IMG/VR virus record: IMGVR_UViG_3300047491_000751
Location: 1 to 24,348 of that record
DNA from: a virus
Direction: 5' to 3' (one strand)
DNA length: 24,348 nucleotides
Of this stretch, positions 11,990 through 24,348 are shown piece by piece. Both the position numbers and the translations under genes were made by a program. Numbering within the stretch: position 1 is the first letter of the stretch; each line of letters opens with the position of its first letter. Under the pieces are notes generated by a model that was given only the letters and a program-made list of their open reading frames with translations, ran no database searches and was not told the origin of the DNA.

Positions 11990-13534
11990 ATGGTTTCAGG
12001 AATACCATCCATAACCTTACAAACCGCATATCAACAAAGCGTGCCATTGGCAGATATCGAGAATACGTGGGGTATATGTCTTGAGTGCACAAAAGGAACA
12101 CCATTCGAACCTGTAGTAGTTGATAGCCCTGATAAGCTAAAGAGACTATTTAAAGTAACAAGATTAGACGGATATTTCGGAGTCGGTGGCCGTGAACTTT
12201 TGGTTACGAGAGTAACCGCAGGAACACCGGTTGCTGCTGTCCATTATCTAAAAGATAGAACAACCCCAACAGCACTTAATGTTTTAAAGCTTACAGCTAA
12301 AACTGTTGGCTCATACCCAATTTATGTTAGTGCAGGAATTAACATAGATGGTGTTAGTACATTAACAATAGAAGAAAGTGGAATGGCGACAGAATATTAT
12401 TTAGGAGTCCCAACTATTGCTAAACTGATTGCAAGAATTAATGCAACATCTGAAATAGTAACTGCTGAAGCAGTTATGAGTGACGATGCTACACCAGTGA
12501 AACAGTATGGTACAAATACATTAGCTACTTTAACAAGAACTAAATTAGGTTCTGGTGGTGGAGATAATGTTGCTGGAAGTAATGGTACCGGAAATGCAAC
12601 AACAGGAGAATTAACATCTGAAACTGCACCAGTAGCACATAAAACCGGATTGGCCATGTTTGCTGATTATCCAATTAATGGAGTGTTCTCAATTAGTGGT
12701 TATGACACAGTTCAGGATGAATATGTAGCACATGCTATTGAAATGAATGCAGAAGACGCTCACAAATTCAGATTCGCAATTATTGGTGCTAATGGTGGGG
12801 ATGATAAAGCAACAATGCTTACACGGACTAATGAAATTAACAGTGAAAATGTTATGTATGTTGGACAAGGATTAGTTGATTTAGATGGAAATCATTATGG
12901 ACCAAATTTAGCTACAATGGCCGTAGCAGGAAAAAGGTCTATGTTACCATATCAAGTGCCTATATGGGGTGGACAGTCTAATAAAAGATTTGGAACAGTA
13001 ACTCCGGATGGATATATGAATTTCTTTGTCGAAACATTGCCAATTGTGGACAGTAACACTATAACTACAAAAAGTGATTTAATAGAATACAATGAGAAAG
13101 GAGTTATTACATTTACTGAAGACCTTGATGGGGTCAGAATCAGAGAAGCGGTAATGACAACCCAACCTTACAACGAAGACGATGAATTAGAAGAAGACGA
13201 AATTTTGGTGACACAGGAAACTGAGGAAGCCATAATGAGCATTATACAGAGGGTCAAACTAAGAATCTGGCAAGCAGTATTTGCAATGCAAGGACGAACA
13301 ATAACATCAGATTATAAAACAACATTAGAAGAAAGTATTAAATCTAAACTTGAGTACATGAAAAACACTGAAAAATCACTGATCGAATTATCATCAGAGG
13401 GATTACCAGCATATACGGTCTCTGCGACTGTAGTTCCAAGATCAAACCAGAAAAAAGGTTATGTGGCAATAGAAGCTTCAATAACTCCGGTACATGCAGC
13501 AAGACAGATTTCAGCAACCATATACGTGAGGTAA
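11990..13534 (+). CDS. Contractile tail sheath protein
   Basis: A 514-residue protein that forms the outer, contracting layer of the tail. The N-terminus (SGIPSITLQTAYQQSVPLAD, followed by ENTWGICLECTKGTPFEPVVV and FGVGGRELLVTRVTAGT) is the sheath-type domain that handles passage and tube contact. The central Gly/Asn-rich stretch near residues 185-200 looks like a surface loop. The end (LRIWQAVFAMQGRTITSDYK, then YTVSATVVPRSNQKKGYVAIEASITPVHAARQISATIYV) is the conserved C-terminal sheath domain that forms the interlocked mesh. Strong GGAGGAGAT site. Its presence defines the tail as contractile. The DNA is richer in T and G than the terminase-portal region. Confidence 0.92.
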   Translation: MVSGIPSITLQTAYQQSVPLADIENTWGICLECTKGTPFEPVVVDSPDKLKRLFKVTRLDGYFGVGGRELLVTRVTAGTPVAAVHYLKDRTTPTALNVLKLTAKTVGSYPIYVSAGINIDGVSTLTIEESGMATEYYLGVPTIAKLIARINATSEIVTAEAVMSDDATPVKQYGTNTLATLTRTKLGSGGGDNVAGSNGTGNATTGELTSETAPVAHKTGLAMFADYPINGVFSISGYDTVQDEYVAHAIEMNAEDAHKFRFAIIGANGGDDKATMLTRTNEINSENVMYVGQGLVDLDGNHYGPNLATMAVAGKRSMLPYQVPIWGGQSNKRFGTVTPDGYMNFFVETLPIVDSNTITTKSDLIEYNEKGVITFTEDLDGVRIREAVMTTQPYNEDDELEEDEILVTQETEEAIMSIIQRVKLRIWQAVFAMQGRTITSDYKTTLEESIKSKLEYMKNTEKSLIELSSEGLPAYTVSATVVPRSNQKKGYVAIEASITPVHAARQISATIYVR

Positions 13535-14746: not shown

Positions 14747-17700
14747 ATGACGGAAGCTTCAAGAGTAGTTGGTGGAATACCCGGTGCTGGTTCTAGAAAA
14801 ATTACTAATCCATCGCAACGTGTAGAATTTATTATAGGTGCGGTTAACGAGGCTGCTCCCGGTATTGCAGCGGTTTCAGCAGGTTTTGCCAACCTTACGG
14901 CCATTGGTATGCGTACTATGGCCGAACTTAATGCATCAATGGGAGCAATGGAAGCTGGTGCAATGGCGGCTGGTGCCGGAGCAGCATTAGCACTTGGGTA
15001 TGCAACATATGAAGCTGCACAATTTGAAAAACAAATGAAGCAAGTACAAGCTGTTTCTGATTCTATGTCAAAAGCAGATTATTCGAATATGAGTAATCAA
15101 ATAAAAGCAATGTCCGTAAAATATGGTGAGGACCCCGGTTCGACTGCTGAGGCAATGCAAACAATTGGTCGTGCAGGTATAAAAGACTCCGCCGCACAAA
15201 TGTCTCTTTTTGAATCGGCTCTAAAAATGGCTAAAATTGAAGGAATGGATTTAAAAGATGCCGTTGATGGTATAATTAAATCTACTTCAATGTTTGGAGC
15301 TGAAATGGATAATCCTAAAGAATTCGCTAAATATGCTGAATTTATCACAGAAAAACTTACCCAAGCCTCACAACTTTCACCTACTGACGTTCCTGATATT
15401 CTTATGGGCACTAAATATGTAGGTGGAACTGCCAAAGAGGCTGGTTGGAGCCCCGAGGAAACGTTTGGTGATATAGCTTATATGGCGAGTAAGGGTGTTC
15501 CGGGCGAAACTGCTGGTACAGCATTAAGGGGTCTCTTACAGAAAGGTTCGATGGAACAAACTAATTTTATTAAAGCAGCTCAATCAGTAGGTCTTGATTC
15601 TAAATTTATGTGGACAACTGATGCTACTGGAAAAGAAGTAATGAAACCTCTTGCGGATATAGTTGAGCAAGTAAATGCTGCTGCTGATGCCAAATGGGGA
15701 AAACAAGATACTCAAGAGCGATTAAAATTATGGACCGGTATTGGGATGCAAAAAACATCTCAACAAATTCTCAAAATTAAACCCGAAGAATTACGTAGAT
15801 TTAATGAAGAAATGCAACAACAGTTTGACCTTGATTCAAAGGTTGCAATTGTAATGGAATCGCTTAGTGCGCAAGTTGATAGGTTAATTTCCGCATTTAA
15901 GGTTTTAGCTATTAATGTAGGGGAATATTCTTTACCGATAGTAAAACTTTTAGTTGCTGCACTTGAAGGATTGGCTAATTTTGTTGGAACAAATCCATTC
16001 GCACCATTTTTAATCTTTTTGACATTGGCCGGGGCGATGGTTCTTGGCCTTGGTATTGCATTTAATTGGTTAATGATAGGAATTAAGTCTGCTGCAAGCG
16101 GATTTATGCGAATGCGTAACGCTGGAATGTCATTAGGACAAATGTTCAAGTATAATACACAAACAGCAAATGAAGTGTCAGCATCACAAGGTAGAGTCAA
16201 AACTAATACCGATTTAACTACTGTCTCAGTTATTAGGTTAGCTGAAGCTTTTAACGCTTTGGCTATAGCTCAACAACGTGCTGCTGCTTCAGGTTTTGTA
16301 GGTGGTGGAGCCGGTGGTGGATGGAGAGACCGTCCGGGGTCTATGACTGTAATTGGGGCAGGAAGTAAACAAGAGAAAATTCCGATACCTACTGGTAAAG
16401 ACTTAGTTAATTCTAATATGGAAAAATCGTTACAGAATCAAGCAAGCCAAGGTGCAATAATTACGAATGCAAATATTCAAAAAGCTATAAACGCAAAGAC
16501 GAATCCTAGTTTGTTTAGCCGAATTTCACAAAGTAGTACATTAGGAATGTTAGGTGGTCCTGCGGGTATTGGATTGATGGGTGGGTTAATAGGGTTGACT
16601 GCACTTTATGGATATCTTAGCGAAGAAAAACCGGGAGAAGATGAACAAATTGAAAAAGTAACAAAACAGATGGAAGGTTTGTCAAATACCAAAGAAAAAT
16701 ATCAAGGGTTATTGAATGAAGAACAAAATAAGTTAAAAAGTTTAAATCCAAAACAACAAGAATATTGGACTACATTAGCTAAAGTCGCTGATTATCAAAA
16801 TAAAGTTAATGATGCTACTGATGCATATAATGGGCTAAGTTCTTCATACGCGACTCACCTAAGAACAGTAGAACAAGTAACCGAACGAGTTTCAAATAAT
16901 CAAGCACAAATATTAATAGATACAAAAGCATATAATGAATATGTCAAAAATTTATCACCTCCGGATATTGAAGGGCCGATAGGGAAAACACGTAAACCTC
17001 CAACATATAAACCACCCGAAAGTGAGATCAACCCACTAAATCCTTTTGATTATGCCTTTAGTATGTTTGGCGGGGCATCACAATCGGGTGCAGACGCACT
17101 AAGAGTAGCTAAAGACCGTGTAATGAATGAGAATTCTGTATTAATGCAAAACTTGAGAGATGACCCGGCTGCCGCCAATCGTAGGTTGGAGTTGGTAAAC
17201 AAAAAATATGGCTATAGAGACGCTAAATGGGGTACGTATGATAGTCAAACAGGAAAATTTACTCAGTCAAGTGATTGGGATTGGGCTAAAAATTCCCTAC
17301 TCGAATATACCACTGGAGCAGAATTAGCTCTTTTTGATTGGACGCATAGTGTACCTACTGGATTTGAAAATAAGGCGGAATCACCTATAAGTAATTTGGT
17401 CAAACAAATTTTTGGAGGAAAAGATACTGTTGGTTCACCATATGTAAAACCTCCGGAACCACCAACTAAAGATGGTACTGATAATATTGTTTCAAGATTT
17501 ATGAAAAGTATATTTGGTGGTGGCAAAGATGATGGTGAAAAATCTGGTGGTGGGCCAAAAGTCTCTGCATTTGGAATTGGGTGGATAGAACAATTAGCAA
17601 AAAACAAAGATATAAATAAAGCTGAAAAGAATGTAAACGGATTAACAAAAATAATAGAAGGAATAAATCCAGCCTTAGCTTCAATCATACCCCAATCTCA

Positions 17701-18325
17701 ACAAACAGGCTCACAATTAAACACAACGTTCACAAACACTAATTCAGGCGCAAATACATACCTAACCCCCATTCCCGGAATGTTTGGATTAATCCCACAG
17801 GGCATAATTGATGCTTATAATAATTCCGTAGGCCCAGTAAATGCGTTTATAACTTTATTAGGTCAAATATGGGCGGCTGTAAATGGTGGAGTTGCAAGCA
17901 CGGTCGGAGCAGCGGCAGGTTTTACAGCTACAGCAGTGTCTAAGGCTGCACAAGATTTTAATACTAAAAATGTCACAATCCCGGGAACAACCCCCGCAAA
18001 TATTGGCGGAGCGGTAGTACAACCGGGTAAACAAGTTACAATTAATCCTGAAACGGGGACCATAGATACAAAATCACCTGTTAAAATATGGAAGGGCGGT
18101 CCATCAAAAAAACTTTCAGGATTTGGTGATACTATTACTTTTCCAGAATTAGACCCTGACTTATTCAAGAAACGGGCGATAGAAACAGGCCAAGCATTTG
18201 GAAGTAACAATTCCGGCTTAACAATTGGAGCTATTCATATAACTGCTAACACTAAACATGATGCGAAAGTTATAAGGACTGAATTGAGGAAGGAATTGAA
18301 TAAAATTGCTAAGATGGTGAGTTAA
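14747..18325 (+). CDS. Tail tape measure protein
   Basis: At 1192 residues, by far the longest gene in the window, right after the chaperone. It sets tail length and is ejected ahead of DNA. Residues 80-380 match the conserved tape-measure core (YEAAQFEKQMKQVQAVSDSMSK, QTIGRAGIKDSAAQMSLFESALKMA, MASKGVPGETAGTALRGLLQKG, QERLKLWTGIGM, QVDRLISAFKVLAINVGE). Hydrophobic segments lie near 416-447 and 598-626, and a third near 1035-1065, which may enter the host membrane. Residues 630-720 are helical and charged. The 800-950 region is Gly/Pro/Lys-rich with a repeated IFGGKD/IFGGGKDD motif. At about 0.15 nm per residue the tail would be near 180 nm. GGTGA stands four bases before ATG 14747. Confidence 0.92.
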   Translation: MTEASRVVGGIPGAGSRKITNPSQRVEFIIGAVNEAAPGIAAVSAGFANLTAIGMRTMAELNASMGAMEAGAMAAGAGAALALGYATYEAAQFEKQMKQVQAVSDSMSKADYSNMSNQIKAMSVKYGEDPGSTAEAMQTIGRAGIKDSAAQMSLFESALKMAKIEGMDLKDAVDGIIKSTSMFGAEMDNPKEFAKYAEFITEKLTQASQLSPTDVPDILMGTKYVGGTAKEAGWSPEETFGDIAYMASKGVPGETAGTALRGLLQKGSMEQTNFIKAAQSVGLDSKFMWTTDATGKEVMKPLADIVEQVNAAADAKWGKQDTQERLKLWTGIGMQKTSQQILKIKPEELRRFNEEMQQQFDLDSKVAIVMESLSAQVDRLISAFKVLAINVGEYSLPIVKLLVAALEGLANFVGTNPFAPFLIFLTLAGAMVLGLGIAFNWLMIGIKSAASGFMRMRNAGMSLGQMFKYNTQTANEVSASQGRVKTNTDLTTVSVIRLAEAFNALAIAQQRAAASGFVGGGAGGGWRDRPGSMTVIGAGSKQEKIPIPTGKDLVNSNMEKSLQNQASQGAIITNANIQKAINAKTNPSLFSRISQSSTLGMLGGPAGIGLMGGLIGLTALYGYLSEEKPGEDEQIEKVTKQMEGLSNTKEKYQGLLNEEQNKLKSLNPKQQEYWTTLAKVADYQNKVNDATDAYNGLSSSYATHLRTVEQVTERVSNNQAQILIDTKAYNEYVKNLSPPDIEGPIGKTRKPPTYKPPESEINPLNPFDYAFSMFGGASQSGADALRVAKDRVMNENSVLMQNLRDDPAAANRRLELVNKKYGYRDAKWGTYDSQTGKFTQSSDWDWAKNSLLEYTTGAELALFDWTHSVPTGFENKAESPISNLVKQIFGGKDTVGSPYVKPPEPPTKDGTDNIVSRFMKSIFGGGKDDGEKSGGGPKVSAFGIGWIEQLAKNKDINKAEKNVNGLTKIIEGINPALASIIPQSQQTGSQLNTTFTNTNSGANTYLTPIPGMFGLIPQGIIDAYNNSVGPVNAFITLLGQIWAAVNGGVASTVGAAAGFTATAVSKAAQDFNTKNVTIPGTTPANIGGAVVQPGKQVTINPETGTIDTKSPVKIWKGGPSKKLSGFGDTITFPELDPDLFKKRAIETGQAFGSNNSGLTIGAIHITANTKHDAKVIRTELRKELNKIAKMVS

Positions 18326-19143
18326 TGGTAGGGACTATAGCATTAAATAATTTGGTTTTAAAAGCTAAAGATGTAGAGGTTACGCCTCACCGAGCTAAGT
18401 ATGAGGATTGGGAGAGTGAGGACGGTTATTTTCAAGTAAGAGTTGCTGATGAGATGAAAGAGGTATCATTTAAATCTGATGTTCTAATTAAAAAGGAAGA
18501 CCTTTTGTTAAAGCTCAATGGCAAGGTTGTATTAGCAAAATCTGGAATGTTCAAACCTTTCTATTGTGTCGTTACCACGCAGAGTTATGAAGTTCCAGCC
18601 GGTGAACTCTGGGCTGAATATAATATTACATTGAGAGAGACTACTAAGGCAGACCCAATTGCACCTAAAAAGGAACCCCTTTTATCAAAAAATAAGGGTG
18701 GAAAAGAAACCACACCTAAAACTGCAAAAGAGGCAAATCTTAAAATTAATATAAAAATAACTGAGATGGTCCCGGGATTAGCTGGTAAAAAAGGATATGA
18801 GGCTCTCAAAATATTATATGAGTGGTTGGATAGTAAATTAGGGTCTCGAAGTTTCTCGAATAGTGAATTTACTACTTTTCCTAGTGGTAGTGAAGGTCAA
18901 ATGATTGGCGACTATAATGCGGTCATGAAAAAGATTAAGACCCTCGGTCATTGGAACTCGAATTGTGTGACCTCAAATGGCACATTAGCTATTGCCGCAA
19001 GACAATTGGGTTTTCAAACATACACACAAACTGCATCATGCCCCGGATTTCAACCGAATCATCATAAAAATGCGGTAATCATTATAAATAATGTGAATAT
19101 TGTAGGGGACCTTACCTGTAAAGAATTAAATGAAATAAAGTGA
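18325..19143 (+). CDS. Tail protein with candidate cysteine-peptidase domain
   Basis: A 272-residue, two-part protein. Residues 1-105 are strand-rich (IALNNLVLKAKDVEVTPH, YFQVRVADEMKEVSFKSD, ELWAEYNITLRE) and sit where contractile tails encode a baseplate hub-adaptor after the tape measure. Residues 106-140 are a Lys/Pro/Thr linker. Residues 155-270 look like a transglutaminase-fold peptidase: LKILYEWLDSKL, then NSNCVTSNGTLAIAARQLGF with Cys214 as candidate nucleophile, QTASCPGF, and HHKNAVIIINN with His246/247, and Asn255/256 or Asp262 as third residue. Pseudomurein endoisopeptidases of methanogen viruses use a Cys-His-Asp triad in this fold, so local wall opening is a reasonable guess. The ATG overlaps the tape measure stop (TAATG) after GGTGA. 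Confidence 0.6.
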   Translation: MVGTIALNNLVLKAKDVEVTPHRAKYEDWESEDGYFQVRVADEMKEVSFKSDVLIKKEDLLLKLNGKVVLAKSGMFKPFYCVVTTQSYEVPAGELWAEYNITLRETTKADPIAPKKEPLLSKNKGGKETTPKTAKEANLKINIKITEMVPGLAGKKGYEALKILYEWLDSKLGSRSFSNSEFTTFPSGSEGQMIGDYNAVMKKIKTLGHWNSNCVTSNGTLAIAARQLGFQTYTQTASCPGFQPNHHKNAVIIINNVNIVGDLTCKELNEIK

Positions 19144-19147
19144 TACC

Positions 19148-21031
19148 ATGTTTAAAAATCATTTGGTTATCTATGAGAATGTTTCAAAAGAAAATCCAAC
19201 CAAGGACAGGAAAGATTCTAAGGATAAGGAGAAAGAATATACAACAACCACCACAATAATAAACGATACATTTATTAAATCAGGTGATTTTAGTAAATCT
19301 CAGGATGATGTATTAGGGACTTTAAATATAACCGTTCCGTTTAGTAAGGAAAATCTTTCAAAATGGGCACCATTGAAAAGAAATGTTAAAATAGTAGGTG
19401 GAGTTTTTGATTCTGAGAACCTGTTTCACGGAAGAACCAATGAAATAAACCAAAATGGAGTAGAATTAGAAGTCACACTTGAAGACCCGGGATGGAAGTT
19501 AAAAGAGGATTATGACGGTGCCGATTATGATGCTGATATACATGAAGTTTTAACTACAATAATAAAAAAGGCCCGATTAAAACCAATTATAAATGATATC
19601 CCGGATGAAAAAATAAATCGTACTGATATTTGGGCTTCAAATACAGGAGGGGAAGCTGGAAAAGGTTGTGTTGGTGGTCCGGGGAAATGTAGTTGTGGTA
19701 AATTTTTAGCCGGGTCTGGTGTATCAAACCATTATTGGAAAAACTATTGTCCAATTTGTGGAAAGAGTGGAACACTAAAATACACTGGATTAAATGATAA
19801 TACCGACCCTTGTGGAGGAAAGGCAGGAAATGTTATAGTAGAAGGACACATTTGGTGCTGTCCATCATGTGCAGATTATTGCGTTACATGTGGATGGGAC
19901 CACAGAGACCGAGCCGGTCCGCACCGGCTAATACCTTGTTCTGCTGATGTTCAAACTTCAAGTGATAAAACTTCGACTGATACTTCATCAGATACTACTT
20001 CAACAGATACCACAAAGAAAACTGAGAGTACAGCCGCAGATTCTACTGGAACTGTTCCTACTGGAGAGACTGAAACTCCTGAAACCCATACATATGAAGA
20101 AGAACTTAGAAAGATTTGTGACTCACGTGATTATCAAATTATAGTAAATCAAAATGAAGAATGTATAATCAGGCCCTCACAATTACCAAAAAAACCAGAC
20201 TATGCAATTGAAAAATGGATGATGGAAAAAGACTCATTCGAATATAATTTTAAAATGCCAACCGGAGATTATGTCATTGCAACAGAAGCCACTGTTACAT
20301 ATGACAAGGGCACAAGCACAGTAAGAATTCAGGAATTATATGATATTTACGGTTCAAAAACTCCTATAAAAATGAGCCTTCCAAAAATGCACAAAGAAGA
20401 AGCAGAGTTAGAAGCAAAAAGGGCATTATATGCAGTACTAAGGGAAACAAGTTCAGAAATGTCATTCAATATGCTAACTACCGGAAAAATACATCCCGGA
20501 ATGTGGATAGAAGTTTTTAACCCAAAATTAGGAATAAAAGAAGTAGTATGGGTAAATAGTATAGATATGCAGTTAGATATAACGACCCCCTTTACAACCG
20601 AAGTAACCTGTAAATATATGCCTGAAAATCCTGAATTAGAGGATTTAGCAGGTGGAAAAACTGGGAATCTTGGTTCATTGGAAGCAATAGGGAAAGAAGA
20701 AGCAAAATTCAGAGATTGCCAAATAGGTCATTGTGGAATACCCGGAAATGACCCATCATATCCTTGGTCCAACGAAAAATGGGGAGCAAGTGATTGTTGG
20801 GGGGATAGTTTTTGGTTGTATGATAAATTCTATGCTGCTGGAATCCCTTGCCGTATTTTAGGAAGCGGAAAACATAGATGGGTTGAAATAGACATGGGAC
20901 AAGGATGGATAGAATTTCCCGGATATATTGAAACTGGACGTAAATGGGGAGGATATCATCATGGAAGTGGTGGTAAGAGAGGAACTTTAATTGTCGGACC
21001 TAATGACCCGAATTCACATCCGGGGTTATAA
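19148..21031 (+). CDS. gpD-like tail hub with zinc insertion and transglutaminase-like domain
   Basis: A 627-residue, four-part protein. Residues 35-165 and 313-495 resemble the late control D/gp27 hub (SQDDVLGTLNITVPFSKENL, LFHGRTNEINQNGVELEVTLEDPGWKL; then EEELRKICDSRDYQIIVNQN, LEAKRALYAVLRETSSEMSF, GKIHPGMWIEVFNP). Residues 174-264 are a Cys-rich insertion (C174, C181, C183, CPIC 201-204, C222, CC 237-238, C241, C245, C248, C264) able to bind two or more zinc ions. Residues 266-312 are a Ser/Thr/Asp linker. Residues 520-592 match a transglutaminase-like protease: GASDCWGDSFWLYDKF with Cys550, AGIPCRIL, KHRWVEI with His576, and WIEFPGY. Placing the protease at the tail tip suggests wall cleavage during entry. 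Starts at 19148 right after the previous stop. Confidence 0.78.
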   Translation: MFKNHLVIYENVSKENPTKDRKDSKDKEKEYTTTTTIINDTFIKSGDFSKSQDDVLGTLNITVPFSKENLSKWAPLKRNVKIVGGVFDSENLFHGRTNEINQNGVELEVTLEDPGWKLKEDYDGADYDADIHEVLTTIIKKARLKPIINDIPDEKINRTDIWASNTGGEAGKGCVGGPGKCSCGKFLAGSGVSNHYWKNYCPICGKSGTLKYTGLNDNTDPCGGKAGNVIVEGHIWCCPSCADYCVTCGWDHRDRAGPHRLIPCSADVQTSSDKTSTDTSSDTTSTDTTKKTESTAADSTGTVPTGETETPETHTYEEELRKICDSRDYQIIVNQNEECIIRPSQLPKKPDYAIEKWMMEKDSFEYNFKMPTGDYVIATEATVTYDKGTSTVRIQELYDIYGSKTPIKMSLPKMHKEEAELEAKRALYAVLRETSSEMSFNMLTTGKIHPGMWIEVFNPKLGIKEVVWVNSIDMQLDITTPFTTEVTCKYMPENPELEDLAGGKTGNLGSLEAIGKEEAKFRDCQIGHCGIPGNDPSYPWSNEKWGASDCWGDSFWLYDKFYAAGIPCRILGSGKHRWVEIDMGQGWIEFPGYIETGRKWGGYHHGSGGKRGTLIVGPNDPNSHPGL

Positions 21032-21032
21032 A

Positions 21033-21611
21033 ATGATATCAGACCAACAAGCAATAAAAGTTTTAAAAAACATAACGGGTACACGTAACATTGAATCCGT
21101 AGACCTTAAGGAATGGGAATTAGGATTACATCGAGCAACACTCTTAAAAGTTGATTTATCACGATTGAATCAAGATGGATGGGGCATAAAAATAGATAAA
21201 ATAGACGAAATGAAGAATGCCTTTTATTCCGGTGATTTAAAAATTCCATATGGTGAAGTAAAAGAAAATTTTGTATATATCAATCCACCATTATCTGGCT
21301 ATGCTTGGATGAACGATGATGGCCAAAGTTGGACTTTTCAACTAAAAGAAGATTTTACAGGAGTACAAGTTGGCCAAAAAGTCGTTAGAATGGGAAATTC
21401 AACTGTAATATTATCAAATGAAAAAATAGAAATTCGAAACGGACAATCATTAATAACATTATCGAACGATGAAGTGAGTATTGCCTTGGTAGAAGCTGGC
21501 GGTGATGGTGTTAACATAGGTTCAGGGGACTCAGAAATTGAATTATCTGATACAGAAATTAATATAAACTCAGAAGAGGTTTATGTAGATGGTGCTAAAC
21601 TACAATTATGA
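21033..21611 (+). CDS. Baseplate spike (gpV/gp5-like) protein
   Basis: A 192-residue protein after the hub, in the place of the baseplate spike that pierces the cell envelope. The middle (KIPYGEVKENFVYINPPLSGYAWMNDDGQSWTFQL, QVGQKVVRMGN) is OB-fold-like. The C-terminal third (STVILSNEKIEIRNGQSLITLSNDEVSIALVEAGGDGVNIGSGDSEIELSDTEININ) is a run of short repeated strands, as in trimeric beta-helix needles. Start ATG 21033 is two bases after the hub stop; no strong ribosome site is seen, so reinitiation is likely. An in-frame upstream ATG at 20991 would lie inside the hub gene. Confidence 0.75.
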   Translation: MISDQQAIKVLKNITGTRNIESVDLKEWELGLHRATLLKVDLSRLNQDGWGIKIDKIDEMKNAFYSGDLKIPYGEVKENFVYINPPLSGYAWMNDDGQSWTFQLKEDFTGVQVGQKVVRMGNSTVILSNEKIEIRNGQSLITLSNDEVSIALVEAGGDGVNIGSGDSEIELSDTEININSEEVYVDGAKLQL

Positions 21612-22008
21612 TATAAAATATGAAACAACTGATGGCTTCTATGAAACATTAGACCCTATTCCATCTGATGCACAACCAACAGAAGGATATGAAGGATTAT
21701 GGCAAGCAATAGTTGGAGAACTAAAAACATGGATAGGAGAAGTGGACTGTAAACATTTAGCCAATTATGGTTCTAATTTACATAAACTCCTTGGAGAAAA
21801 CATTGATGACGATTTTAAATCCCAATTAGAATTTTATATCGAAGAAGTCATGGATAATTATCCTGAAATAGACACTTGGAATCTTAAAAATATCAAAAAC
21901 GACAGAAAAGATTATCGGGAAAAATTACTAACCGCTGAAAGTTATAATTTTACCTTAGAAGTAATCGTTAATAATAAACGTATATCGGGGGTTGTAAATA
22001 TTGGCTAA
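21589..22008 (+). CDS. gp25-like baseplate wedge protein
   Basis: A 139-residue protein between spike and gpJ-like genes, where contractile-tail viruses encode the gp25/gpW wedge. Seen: GLWQAIVGELKTWIGEVDCKHLANYGSNLHKLLGENID, helices and strands, and a closing ESYNFTLEVIVNNKRISGVVNI that fits the final strand pair of the gp25 family. Its start ATG overlaps the spike gene by 23 bases, and no other ATG is in frame nearby. It overlaps the next gene by 8 bases. Wedge proteins link the hub to sheath and tail fibres. The family is named from order and fold pattern. Confidence 0.7.
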   Translation: MVLNYNYDIKYETTDGFYETLDPIPSDAQPTEGYEGLWQAIVGELKTWIGEVDCKHLANYGSNLHKLLGENIDDDFKSQLEFYIEEVMDNYPEIDTWNLKNIKNDRKDYREKLLTAESYNFTLEVIVNNKRISGVVNIG

Positions 22009-23104
22009 AACAGAAGAAGAATTTTTAGAATCATTCAGGCAACGAACAAATAATTCAGACCTTTTACCGGGCAACATTCAAGAAAGAGGGCGGTTGGACA
22101 TACTATATGGTATAATGTCAGCCGAATTGTCCAATCACGAGGAAAGAATCGAACAAGAATTAATAAATACAAATTTAATTACAGCAACAGACCCAATTGC
22201 TATAAAGAACTTATCTGCACCATATTATACCGGTGCACAGGCTACATATGCGCAAACAATCCTAACCATTACTCGAAATGGAATTACAGGAGATATTTAC
22301 ATTCCGGCAGGAACATATGTGGAAACAAGTGGAAAAAACCCAATTCAGTTCACCACATTCAATTCAGTATACTTATACGCTCCTCAAAACTCAGTTAAAG
22401 TAAAAATTAAAGCGGTTAAAAAGGGAGTATCAAGTATGGTTAGTGCTAACACCATTAACCAAGTCACAGGTGGACGAATAGCTGGAATCAGTGTTAAAAA
22501 TAGTCAACAAACATGGGGAGGATATAATGATGAAACATCGTCAAAAATCAAATCACAGGCACTTAGTGCTCGATTTTCAATGGCAAAATGCACGAAAAGA
22601 GCATTAGACGCAGCGATGTTTCATTTGCAAATCGAACCATATAGGTACAACTTAGTAGAGTTCCCTTATGGAATAGGTAGCGCTGTTATATATTTTGATG
22701 CTTATAGTGAGGAAGAATTGAAATTTGTTCAAGGTTTAATGAATAGAGAATTCGCATTTGGTATATATCATAGAATTGAACAAGCAACAAACGTAGATAT
22801 TACATTTAAAATTGATACAGAGGTCTTTGTCGATTCGGGAATATTAACTCCAAGCCTTAAAGCAACAATTCAAAAAACCATAGAAAAAAGTTTAAAAGAA
22901 TATATATCCATAAACGGGGTCGGAAAAAGATTTATTAGAGCAAGGGCCATAAGATATTTATTACATGAATTAGATTCTTATGGAGTACAAGATATAGAAA
23001 TAGCCACAGCAGGGTATCCTACTGATTCAAAAGGAAATATTACAATAAAACCACAGGAAGTATTTAATGCTGAGGCAATCTCGGTGAGCGTAAATGTTGC
23101 GTAA
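22001..23104 (+). CDS. Baseplate J-like wedge protein
   Basis: A 367-residue protein of the gpJ/gp6 family that forms the baseplate rim. Seen: ERGRLDILYGIMSAELSNHEERIEQEL, then ATDPIAIKNLSAPYYTGAQATYAQTILTITRNG, the Ala/Gly-rich IYIPAGTYVETSGKNPIQFTTFNSVYL typical of the J domain, VKIKAVKKGVSSMVSANTINQV, and a C-terminal half with IDTEVFVDSGILTPSLKATIQKTIEKSLKEYI. Starts at TTG 22001 after GGGGGT, eight bases upstream. This is the usual partner of the gp25-like gene. High confidence. Confidence 0.88.
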   Translation: MAKTEEEFLESFRQRTNNSDLLPGNIQERGRLDILYGIMSAELSNHEERIEQELINTNLITATDPIAIKNLSAPYYTGAQATYAQTILTITRNGITGDIYIPAGTYVETSGKNPIQFTTFNSVYLYAPQNSVKVKIKAVKKGVSSMVSANTINQVTGGRIAGISVKNSQQTWGGYNDETSSKIKSQALSARFSMAKCTKRALDAAMFHLQIEPYRYNLVEFPYGIGSAVIYFDAYSEEELKFVQGLMNREFAFGIYHRIEQATNVDITFKIDTEVFVDSGILTPSLKATIQKTIEKSLKEYISINGVGKRFIRARAIRYLLHELDSYGVQDIEIATAGYPTDSKGNITIKPQEVFNAEAISVSVNVA

Positions 23105-24348
23105 AAGATGGCCAAGATACTTAAACGAAGATGATGAGTTCTGGATTGCTCATTACGAAATAGATGAATTAGAATTTCGTAAATATTGGGATTTCCTTCG
23201 GAGTTTTCCTAAACAACCATTACAAGTGTGGACAAAAGTTACTTGGTCCAATGAGATAATGGTTTATGAATGGTGTATATTAGGCCGTGCCCAAATGTAT
23301 CCAGATGGCTATGGAGGTTTTTGCACAATAGAACGAATTGAGGTTTATAATAGGTATGATGAATTGATTGATTATCGAGATTATTCACAAGAAGAAATGA
23401 CGACTCATACACATTGGACTATACCAAACCAGTCAGATGATAAATTTTATGCAAGAATATATTATTACGGATATGACGATTATAAAGACGTTGGATTTCC
23501 TCAAGAAGAAGACCCGGTAGATGACGTTTATCAGACAAACTCTTATTTAGATGAATTTGCAAGCGAATTAGGACTTAAAAGAAGGGAGTTTGCTGTGGTT
23601 CCATTATCAAAAATAAAAGAAACCCATCCAAAAGGTTATTTATATCTAATAGAACAAGATTATTGGTTTGAAAAACGTCTCTTATCAGAATACAATGTGC
23701 GTAATACAACAAGAATAACAAATTCAAGGAACAAATTAACTTCAAATGTAGCTACGTGCACAAACGATTCAAATAGTATAATAGGTTTTTTAGCTTTTGG
23801 TGATTCAGAATTAGAAATAGATACAAGTGTTCATAAGATGGGAGAACAAAGTTTAAAGGTCTTATCACCCGGAATCGAAGGACATCATGGAATACGGATT
23901 ATGGTCACAACTGGAATGTTAAACAGCTATACATTTTCAGGATGGGTACTTATACCAGAAGACAAAACCATAGAAATTGTTGCTTATTATTCAAATGATA
24001 TAAATCCTTATCCAGAACATACAATAACTGGAACCGGTGATTGGTATCCTTTCGAGTATTCTTTCACTAATTCAAGCAGAAATAATGTAACAAGTTTGGT
24101 TATTAAAACTGGTGAAACTGATGAGTTTGAATTTAATATCGGTCAGTTACAATTTGAAACTGGCATGATTGCGAATGATTTTGAGTTCCCAAGAAAAATA
24201 GTGGATAAAGAGGTTAGGTTTAGTGAAACTTTGTTAGACAGTTATGGTAGAAGAATCATGGGATTAAATATTATAGTTCCAGAATCAAGACGTGTAGATG
24301 TGTTGGTGCATGATAAAACTGTATATCTTACTGGATATGAAGTTAATG
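23094..24348 (+). CDS. Partial tail-tip/fibre protein with carbohydrate-binding-like domain
   Basis: Starts at ATG 23094 after GGTGA, overlaps the gpJ-like gene by 11 bases, and runs off the right edge; 418 residues are visible. It lies where P2-like viruses encode gpI and fibre genes. Residues 1-100 are Trp/Tyr/Glu-rich (MLRKRWPRYLNEDDEFWIAH) without a clear gpI match. Residues 225-363 look like a CBM-type beta sandwich: QSLKVLSPG, YTFSGWVLIPEDKTIEIVAYY, then the W-centred TGTGDWYPFEYSFT and FNIGQLQFETGMIANDFEF, a common pattern in phage fibres. The remainder continues as strands. It probably binds host surface sugars; the true C-terminus and fibre type are unseen. Confidence 0.7.
   Translation, partial: MLRKRWPRYLNEDDEFWIAHYEIDELEFRKYWDFLRSFPKQPLQVWTKVTWSNEIMVYEWCILGRAQMYPDGYGGFCTIERIEVYNRYDELIDYRDYSQEEMTTHTHWTIPNQSDDKFYARIYYYGYDDYKDVGFPQEEDPVDDVYQTNSYLDEFASELGLKRREFAVVPLSKIKETHPKGYLYLIEQDYWFEKRLLSEYNVRNTTRITNSRNKLTSNVATCTNDSNSIIGFLAFGDSELEIDTSVHKMGEQSLKVLSPGIEGHHGIRIMVTTGMLNSYTFSGWVLIPEDKTIEIVAYYSNDINPYPEHTITGTGDWYPFEYSFTNSSRNNVTSLVIKTGETDEFEFNIGQLQFETGMIANDFEFPRKIVDKEVRFSETLLDSYGRRIMGLNIIVPESRRVDVLVHDKTVYLTGYEVN

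Follow-up and report, generated by a model that had tools for sequence, protein, structure and literature searches.

A transglutaminase-like domain on the tail hub of a contractile-tailed virus and its recurrence among viruses of Methanobacteriales

Introduction

The closest described enzymes are the pseudomurein endoisopeptidases PeiW and PeiP (Peptidase_C71) of psiM100 and psiM2, viruses of pseudomurein methanogens. Both carry a transglutaminase (TG) triad and cleave Ala-epsilon-Lys links, and PeiP needs a divalent metal and a reductant (PMC4592898). Pseudomurein enzymes of methanogen viruses have been treated as lysis (release) enzymes (PMC4456609, PMC12596118), and the same two sources describe no answer to how a tailed virus enters through a pseudomurein wall. 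Virion-associated lysins are a familiar feature of bacteriophages, where they occur on tail tips and tape measures (PMC6116005), as in the tape measure of mycobacteriophage TM4 (PMC1796659).

Here we describe a TG-like domain at the C-terminus of a predicted tail hub. The hub is encoded in IMG/VR record IMGVR_UViG_3300047491_000751, the whole of which (24,348 nt, probably a genome fragment) was analyzed and is called the window below. Like PeiW and PeiP, the domain presents the Cys-His-acid order of the TG superfamily; however, PeiW and PeiP are separate enzymes of ~305 aa with pseudomurein-binding repeats (PMBRs) and are not tail proteins, whereas the window domain has Glu at the acid place and gave no C71 match. 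It also resembles the gp5 lysozyme of T4 and further virion-associated lysins, in which the tail tip or tape measure carries a wall-degrading domain that serves entry, although those belong to viruses of bacterial hosts, act on murein, and have other enzyme folds. The parallel with gp5 drawn in the preliminary description of this DNA is a loose one: it extends to a candidate wall enzyme placed on the tail tip for entry, but the T4 enzyme sits on the gp5 spike, while that of the window belongs to the hub chain and the spike-like protein has its own, adjoining gene. Finally, as in the PBSX XkdQ/YqbQ hubs (PF24032), the hub gene follows the tape measure/XkdP-like gene and precedes the spike and wedge genes; relative to these hubs, the window appears to encode an archaeal-virus version with a Cys-rich insert and a C-terminal TG-like enzyme.

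Results and Discussion

A hub of the XkdQ/YqbQ type within a contractile-tail module

The window encodes head and contractile-tail genes of the myovirus type, namely terminase, portal, major head protein, sheath, tape measure, hub, and spike-like, gp25-like, and wedge J proteins (Table 1). The window hub itself gave a weak match to PHROG tail proteins (phrog_1887, E 0.024), and single-sequence profile and PDB sequence searches with this protein returned no convincing match. Similarly, tblastn with only the window hub as query detected nothing related in viral or genome contigs, and a second scan of GTDB genomes yielded no relative. Relatives were reached only when viral contigs were searched with the Cys-rich motif of the hub as a pattern, and orthologues from there. 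Three distinct orthologues, on contigs L036 (= L007), L041, and L049, are 24-28% identical to the window hub (BLASTP). All three match PHROG tail proteins, and that of L036 exceeds the cut-off for the YQBQ-like family PF24032 (E 9.3e-9). With sheath, tape measure, gp25-like protein, and J around it, the window hub is assigned to the XkdQ/YqbQ type within a contractile-tail module. Around residues 265-315 the hub has a long linker of low complexity. A full-length hub model made from three sequences was useless (pLDDT 31) and was discarded.

Table 1. Predicted features of the tail module in the window (positions in nucleotides)
Feature	Position	Strand	Basis
Tail sheath (contractile tail)	11990..13534	+	phrog_279 tail sheath, E 5e-19
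Tape measure protein	14747..18325	+	PF10145, 1.9e-25; PHROG tape measure
272-aa gene in the tape measure/hub interval, position like the XkdP-like gene of relatives	18325..19143	+	placement
Baseplate/tail hub, 627 aa, XkdQ/YqbQ-type, with internal Cys-rich module and C-terminal TG-like domain	19148..21031	+	ORF; orthologues
Cys-rich, zinc-ribbon-like module of hub, residues ~174-262, WKNYCPICGKSGTL...CPSCADYCVTCG	19667..19933	+	common to vir249, MSTV1, Drs3, and many viral contigs
TG-like (transglutaminase-like) domain of hub, residues ~510-615	20675..20990	+	leave-one-out HMM, orthologue PF01841, model
Spike-like gene, 206 aa	20991..21611	+	ORF/frame; function from position and repetitive sequence only
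gp25-like baseplate/sheath-initiator protein	21589..22008	+	phrog_975, 2.8e-6
Baseplate wedge protein J	22001..23104	+	phrog_6, 2.3e-18

Several features of the surrounding genes were also observed. The listed TTG start of the spike-like gene (20991) overlaps the hub, and an ATG at 21033, just past the hub stop, is probably the real start. The protein after wedge J (23094-24347) contains a carbohydrate-binding-like stretch (CBM_4_9, E 1.8e-4, slightly below the cut-off). Head genes of contig L022 are 34% (terminase), 32% (portal), and 36% (head protein) identical to those of the window. A second TG-like domain is possible in the 272-aa neighbor of the hub, whose C-terminal Cys214/His246-247/Asp262 pattern resembles the TG domain; its score as a TG domain (8.5 bits) was matched by 4 of 5,000 shuffles, and support varied with the profile used (E 0.013 with one, nothing with another). 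A search for relatives of this neighbor found none.

Fold of the C-terminal domain

The preliminary description had proposed a TG-like domain in the tail hub of a contractile-tail virus, and this proposal is borne out by an orthologue HMM, a structural model, the hub profiles, and the neighboring sheath and J genes. When all six frames of the window were scanned with the HMM, built from the three orthologues only and with the window left out, the window domain was recovered at E 2.3e-18 (60.9 bits), the next best match being at E 0.99. As a control, the domain was shuffled 5,000 times; the best shuffle scored 8.2 bits, against 65.6 for the real domain. The domain is somewhat wider than first proposed (Table 1) and is followed by a low-confidence tail to residue 627. 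The profile search suggested earlier as a check succeeded in a relative but not in the window protein itself: Transglut_core (PF01841) has no match in the window hub, passes its cut-off of 23 in the L049 orthologue (25.7 bits), falls slightly below it in the L036 domain (22.3), and is below the cut-off in L041. The hub is the sole PF01841 match in the records of these three contigs.

A model of the TG domain, made with relatives, reached a pLDDT of 80.6 and a pTM of 0.78. In it, a helix (domain residues 41-54) begins at Cys550 (domain residue 41), the second strand after the Cys (67-73) begins at His576, and a further strand (78-80) holds Glu589, which is the topology of the TG superfamily, where the Cys opens a helix, the His opens a strand, and a strand with the acid follows. 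The top rows of the VIA-align comparison were TglA (Z 7.4), LapG (7.3), and TGase (6.5), together with arylamine N-acetyltransferases (NATs), PNGase, and vasohibin; Foldseek gave E values of 0.02-0.1 at best. Because the VIA-align Z scores are under 8, this list of neighbors, most of them from the TG superfamily, carries the fold argument by its consistency and not by score. A neighbor in BFVD, A0A5Q2W658, was found at E 2.7e-5 with 26% identity. We regard the TG-like fold of residues ~510-615 as supported at the level of a predicted structure.

Putative catalytic residues

Cys550 (codon 20795-20797), His576 (20873-20875), and a WIEFPGY segment starting at W587 follow the TG order as the preliminary description stated, with the qualification that the window has Glu589 (20912-20914) as its third residue, where Asp is usual (Transglut_core '.lDp.'). 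None of the four sequences (window, L036, L041, and L049) varies at Cys550 or His576, or in the neighboring motifs DCW.DS..WLY and H.WV, while the orthologue domains are 34-44% identical to that of the window. The expected conservation in relatives is therefore found among the orthologues, where neither absence of a TG fold nor loss of the Cys or His occurs. At the acid column L041 also has Glu; L049, vir249, and L025 have Asp; and L036 has Thr, with Glu one residue earlier. Precedent for a Cys-His-Glu set exists in the superfamily: 4dmo, a TG-like-fold enzyme among the structural matches, carries it in its title. We consider Cys550-His576-Glu589 a putative catalytic set.

The domain might instead be a structural or wall-binding module without catalysis, its Cys and His kept for the fold or by recent descent. 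We judge this unlikely, although some features of the family would fit it. The hubs of L002 (L002:9564-9842) and L003 (L003:9552-9830) keep the domain but have lost the Cys, and that of L003 lacks the His too, so the domain can serve without catalysis. In addition, the acid position is not strictly Asp, and inactive TG-like proteins exist; menin is one, and it appears among the Foldseek rows. However, at 34-44% identity the Cys, the His, and both motifs are unchanged in the orthologues, while much else has changed. Further, the viruses whose hubs have lost the Cys carry an intact TG domain with Cys-His-Asp in their tape measures, which suggests that the activity has moved rather than become dispensable.

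Tail-borne TG domains in related viruses

To judge from the sequences, the hub TG arrangement recurs, unannotated, in other viruses of Methanobacteriales and is not unique to the window virus. Two members of Caudoviricetes that infect Methanobacteriales of the human gut, vir080 and vir249 (BK063677, BK063678), resemble the window in having a TG domain in the tail hub, in their case with Cys-His-Asp, and both of these proteins are annotated 'hypothetical protein'. The vir080 genome has contractile-tail genes as in the window (sheath and wedge J), but its hub is split in two genes, both homologous to the single hub of L036 (E 5e-14 and 3e-8), and its TG domain (Transglut_core, 41.5 bits) lies within the hub, at the site of the Cys-rich module of the window. 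The vir249 hub, which is much longer than that of the window, aligns with it over the Cys-rich module as well as the TG domain. In the hub of L022, too, the Cys-rich module is accompanied by a TG-like domain, which lies at the C-terminus and has Cys-His-Asp.

C-terminal TG domains were also found on tape measures, in MSTV1, Drs3, vir249, and contigs L002-L004. The Drs3 protein annotated 'prominin' (Drs3_00031, L054:1-4212) occupies the place of the tape measure and has a TG-like domain at its C-terminus. In psiM2, PeiP was found and no tail TG domain was recognizable; the feature is thus not required by all such viruses. Our literature search, with the genome papers of vir080/vir249 and MSTV1 outside its scope, found no description of TG-like domains in archaeal tail hubs.

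The Cys-rich module and the probable host

The Cys-rich module (WKNYCPICGKSGTL) is shared with MSTV1, vir249, and Drs3 and is seen in many hub proteins; it is possibly a signature of Methanobacteriales viruses. Among 50,697 phage records, matches to the module and hub all fell in viruses of this order (vir249, vir080, MSTV1, and Drs3), and the TG domain alone matched vir249 only, apart from chance-level matches. Mainly because of the former result, the window virus probably has a pseudomurein methanogen as its host. The module may serve to retain or place the hub at the wall. In contigs L009, L011, L012, L016, L030, and others, proteins of ~370-400 aa combine this module with a hub-like middle part and a TG/C71-like domain at the C-terminus, in a compact version of the hub architecture.

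The preliminary description went further in calling the domain a protease suited to pseudomurein, and this wording is not supported: identity with C71 (PF12386) was rejected, there being no Peptidase_C71 match in the window at E <= 10, and the host is assigned only via the Cys-rich module. Nor did the records of L036, L041, and L049 contain a C71 match, and PMBRs were absent both from these records and from the window. The lack of C71 and PMBR matches in the window, together with the indirect host assignment and a terminase weakly like those of haloarchaeal viruses, cyanophages, and one Thermus phage, would suit an enzyme whose target is a different surface polymer or glycoprotein (an S-layer or peptidoglycan of bacteria) in a host other than a pseudomurein methanogen. 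We consider such a substrate improbable, as the phage-record matches described above point to Methanobacteriales viruses throughout.

A proposed role in entry rather than lysis

Each of the four complete genomes with a tail-borne TG domain (vir080, vir249, MSTV1, and Drs3) also has a separate lysis-type enzyme: vir249 and MSTV1 encode a C71 Pei, and Drs3 a PMBR protein with a C71/TG core. In vir080, the unannotated vir080_00065 (L051:2509-3435) has a weak PMBR match and a Cys/His pattern that is C39-like by eye only; its sequence makes it probably the lysis enzyme of this virus, of the PeiR kind. Because complete genomes with a tail TG domain carry a separate enzyme of this type as well, an entry-stage role is the better reading for the tail-borne domain. 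For the window, a 24-kb fragment in which no lysis enzyme of its own is seen, the entry role proposed earlier is supported by way of its relatives rather than directly.

A profile made from the tail TG domains alone recovers PeiP of psiM2, a biochemically characterized pseudomurein endoisopeptidase (E 9.9e-9); hhalign comparisons of the window TG alignment with the Pei of vir249 and with the siphovirus TG group were not significant. That the enzyme acts on protein, in hub self-processing or in cross-linking (true transglutaminase activity) during tail assembly, is quite improbable: true transglutaminases and LapG-type proteases do have this fold and appear in the list of structural neighbors, and the hub linker is long and low in complexity, but the same domain type occurs in different tail proteins (hub and tape measure) of viruses facing one kind of host wall, the profile that recognizes the tail domains also recognizes the wall enzyme PeiP, and the orthologue hub alignment has no obvious conserved cleavage site.

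We therefore favor, with moderate confidence, the reading in which the hub C-terminus carries a TG-superfamily cysteine hydrolase that acts as a virion-associated lysin at entry, on a wall that is most likely pseudomurein. Its fusion to the hub would place the domain in the virion. Contraction of the sheath would bring the hub against the cell surface; there the TG domain would cut peptide or isopeptide links of the wall, and the tube could then reach the membrane; release would be served by a separate lysis enzyme, as in the related complete genomes.

Implications

The feature is real and common to several viruses, and the public records examined do not annotate it. A conserved TG-like enzyme on hubs and tape measures offers a concrete, testable candidate for the entry step, and the tail TG enzymes are potential new reagents for opening methanogen cells. 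More tentatively, and with rather less confidence than in the reading for the window hub, we suggest that tailed viruses of pseudomurein methanogens may have an entry-enzyme class of their own: TG-like cysteine peptidases that shuttle as modules between hub and tape measure, are paired with a Cys-rich module particular to these viruses, and stand apart from the C71/C39 lysis enzymes. If so, this class would be the archaeal counterpart of the virion-associated lysins of bacterial viruses.
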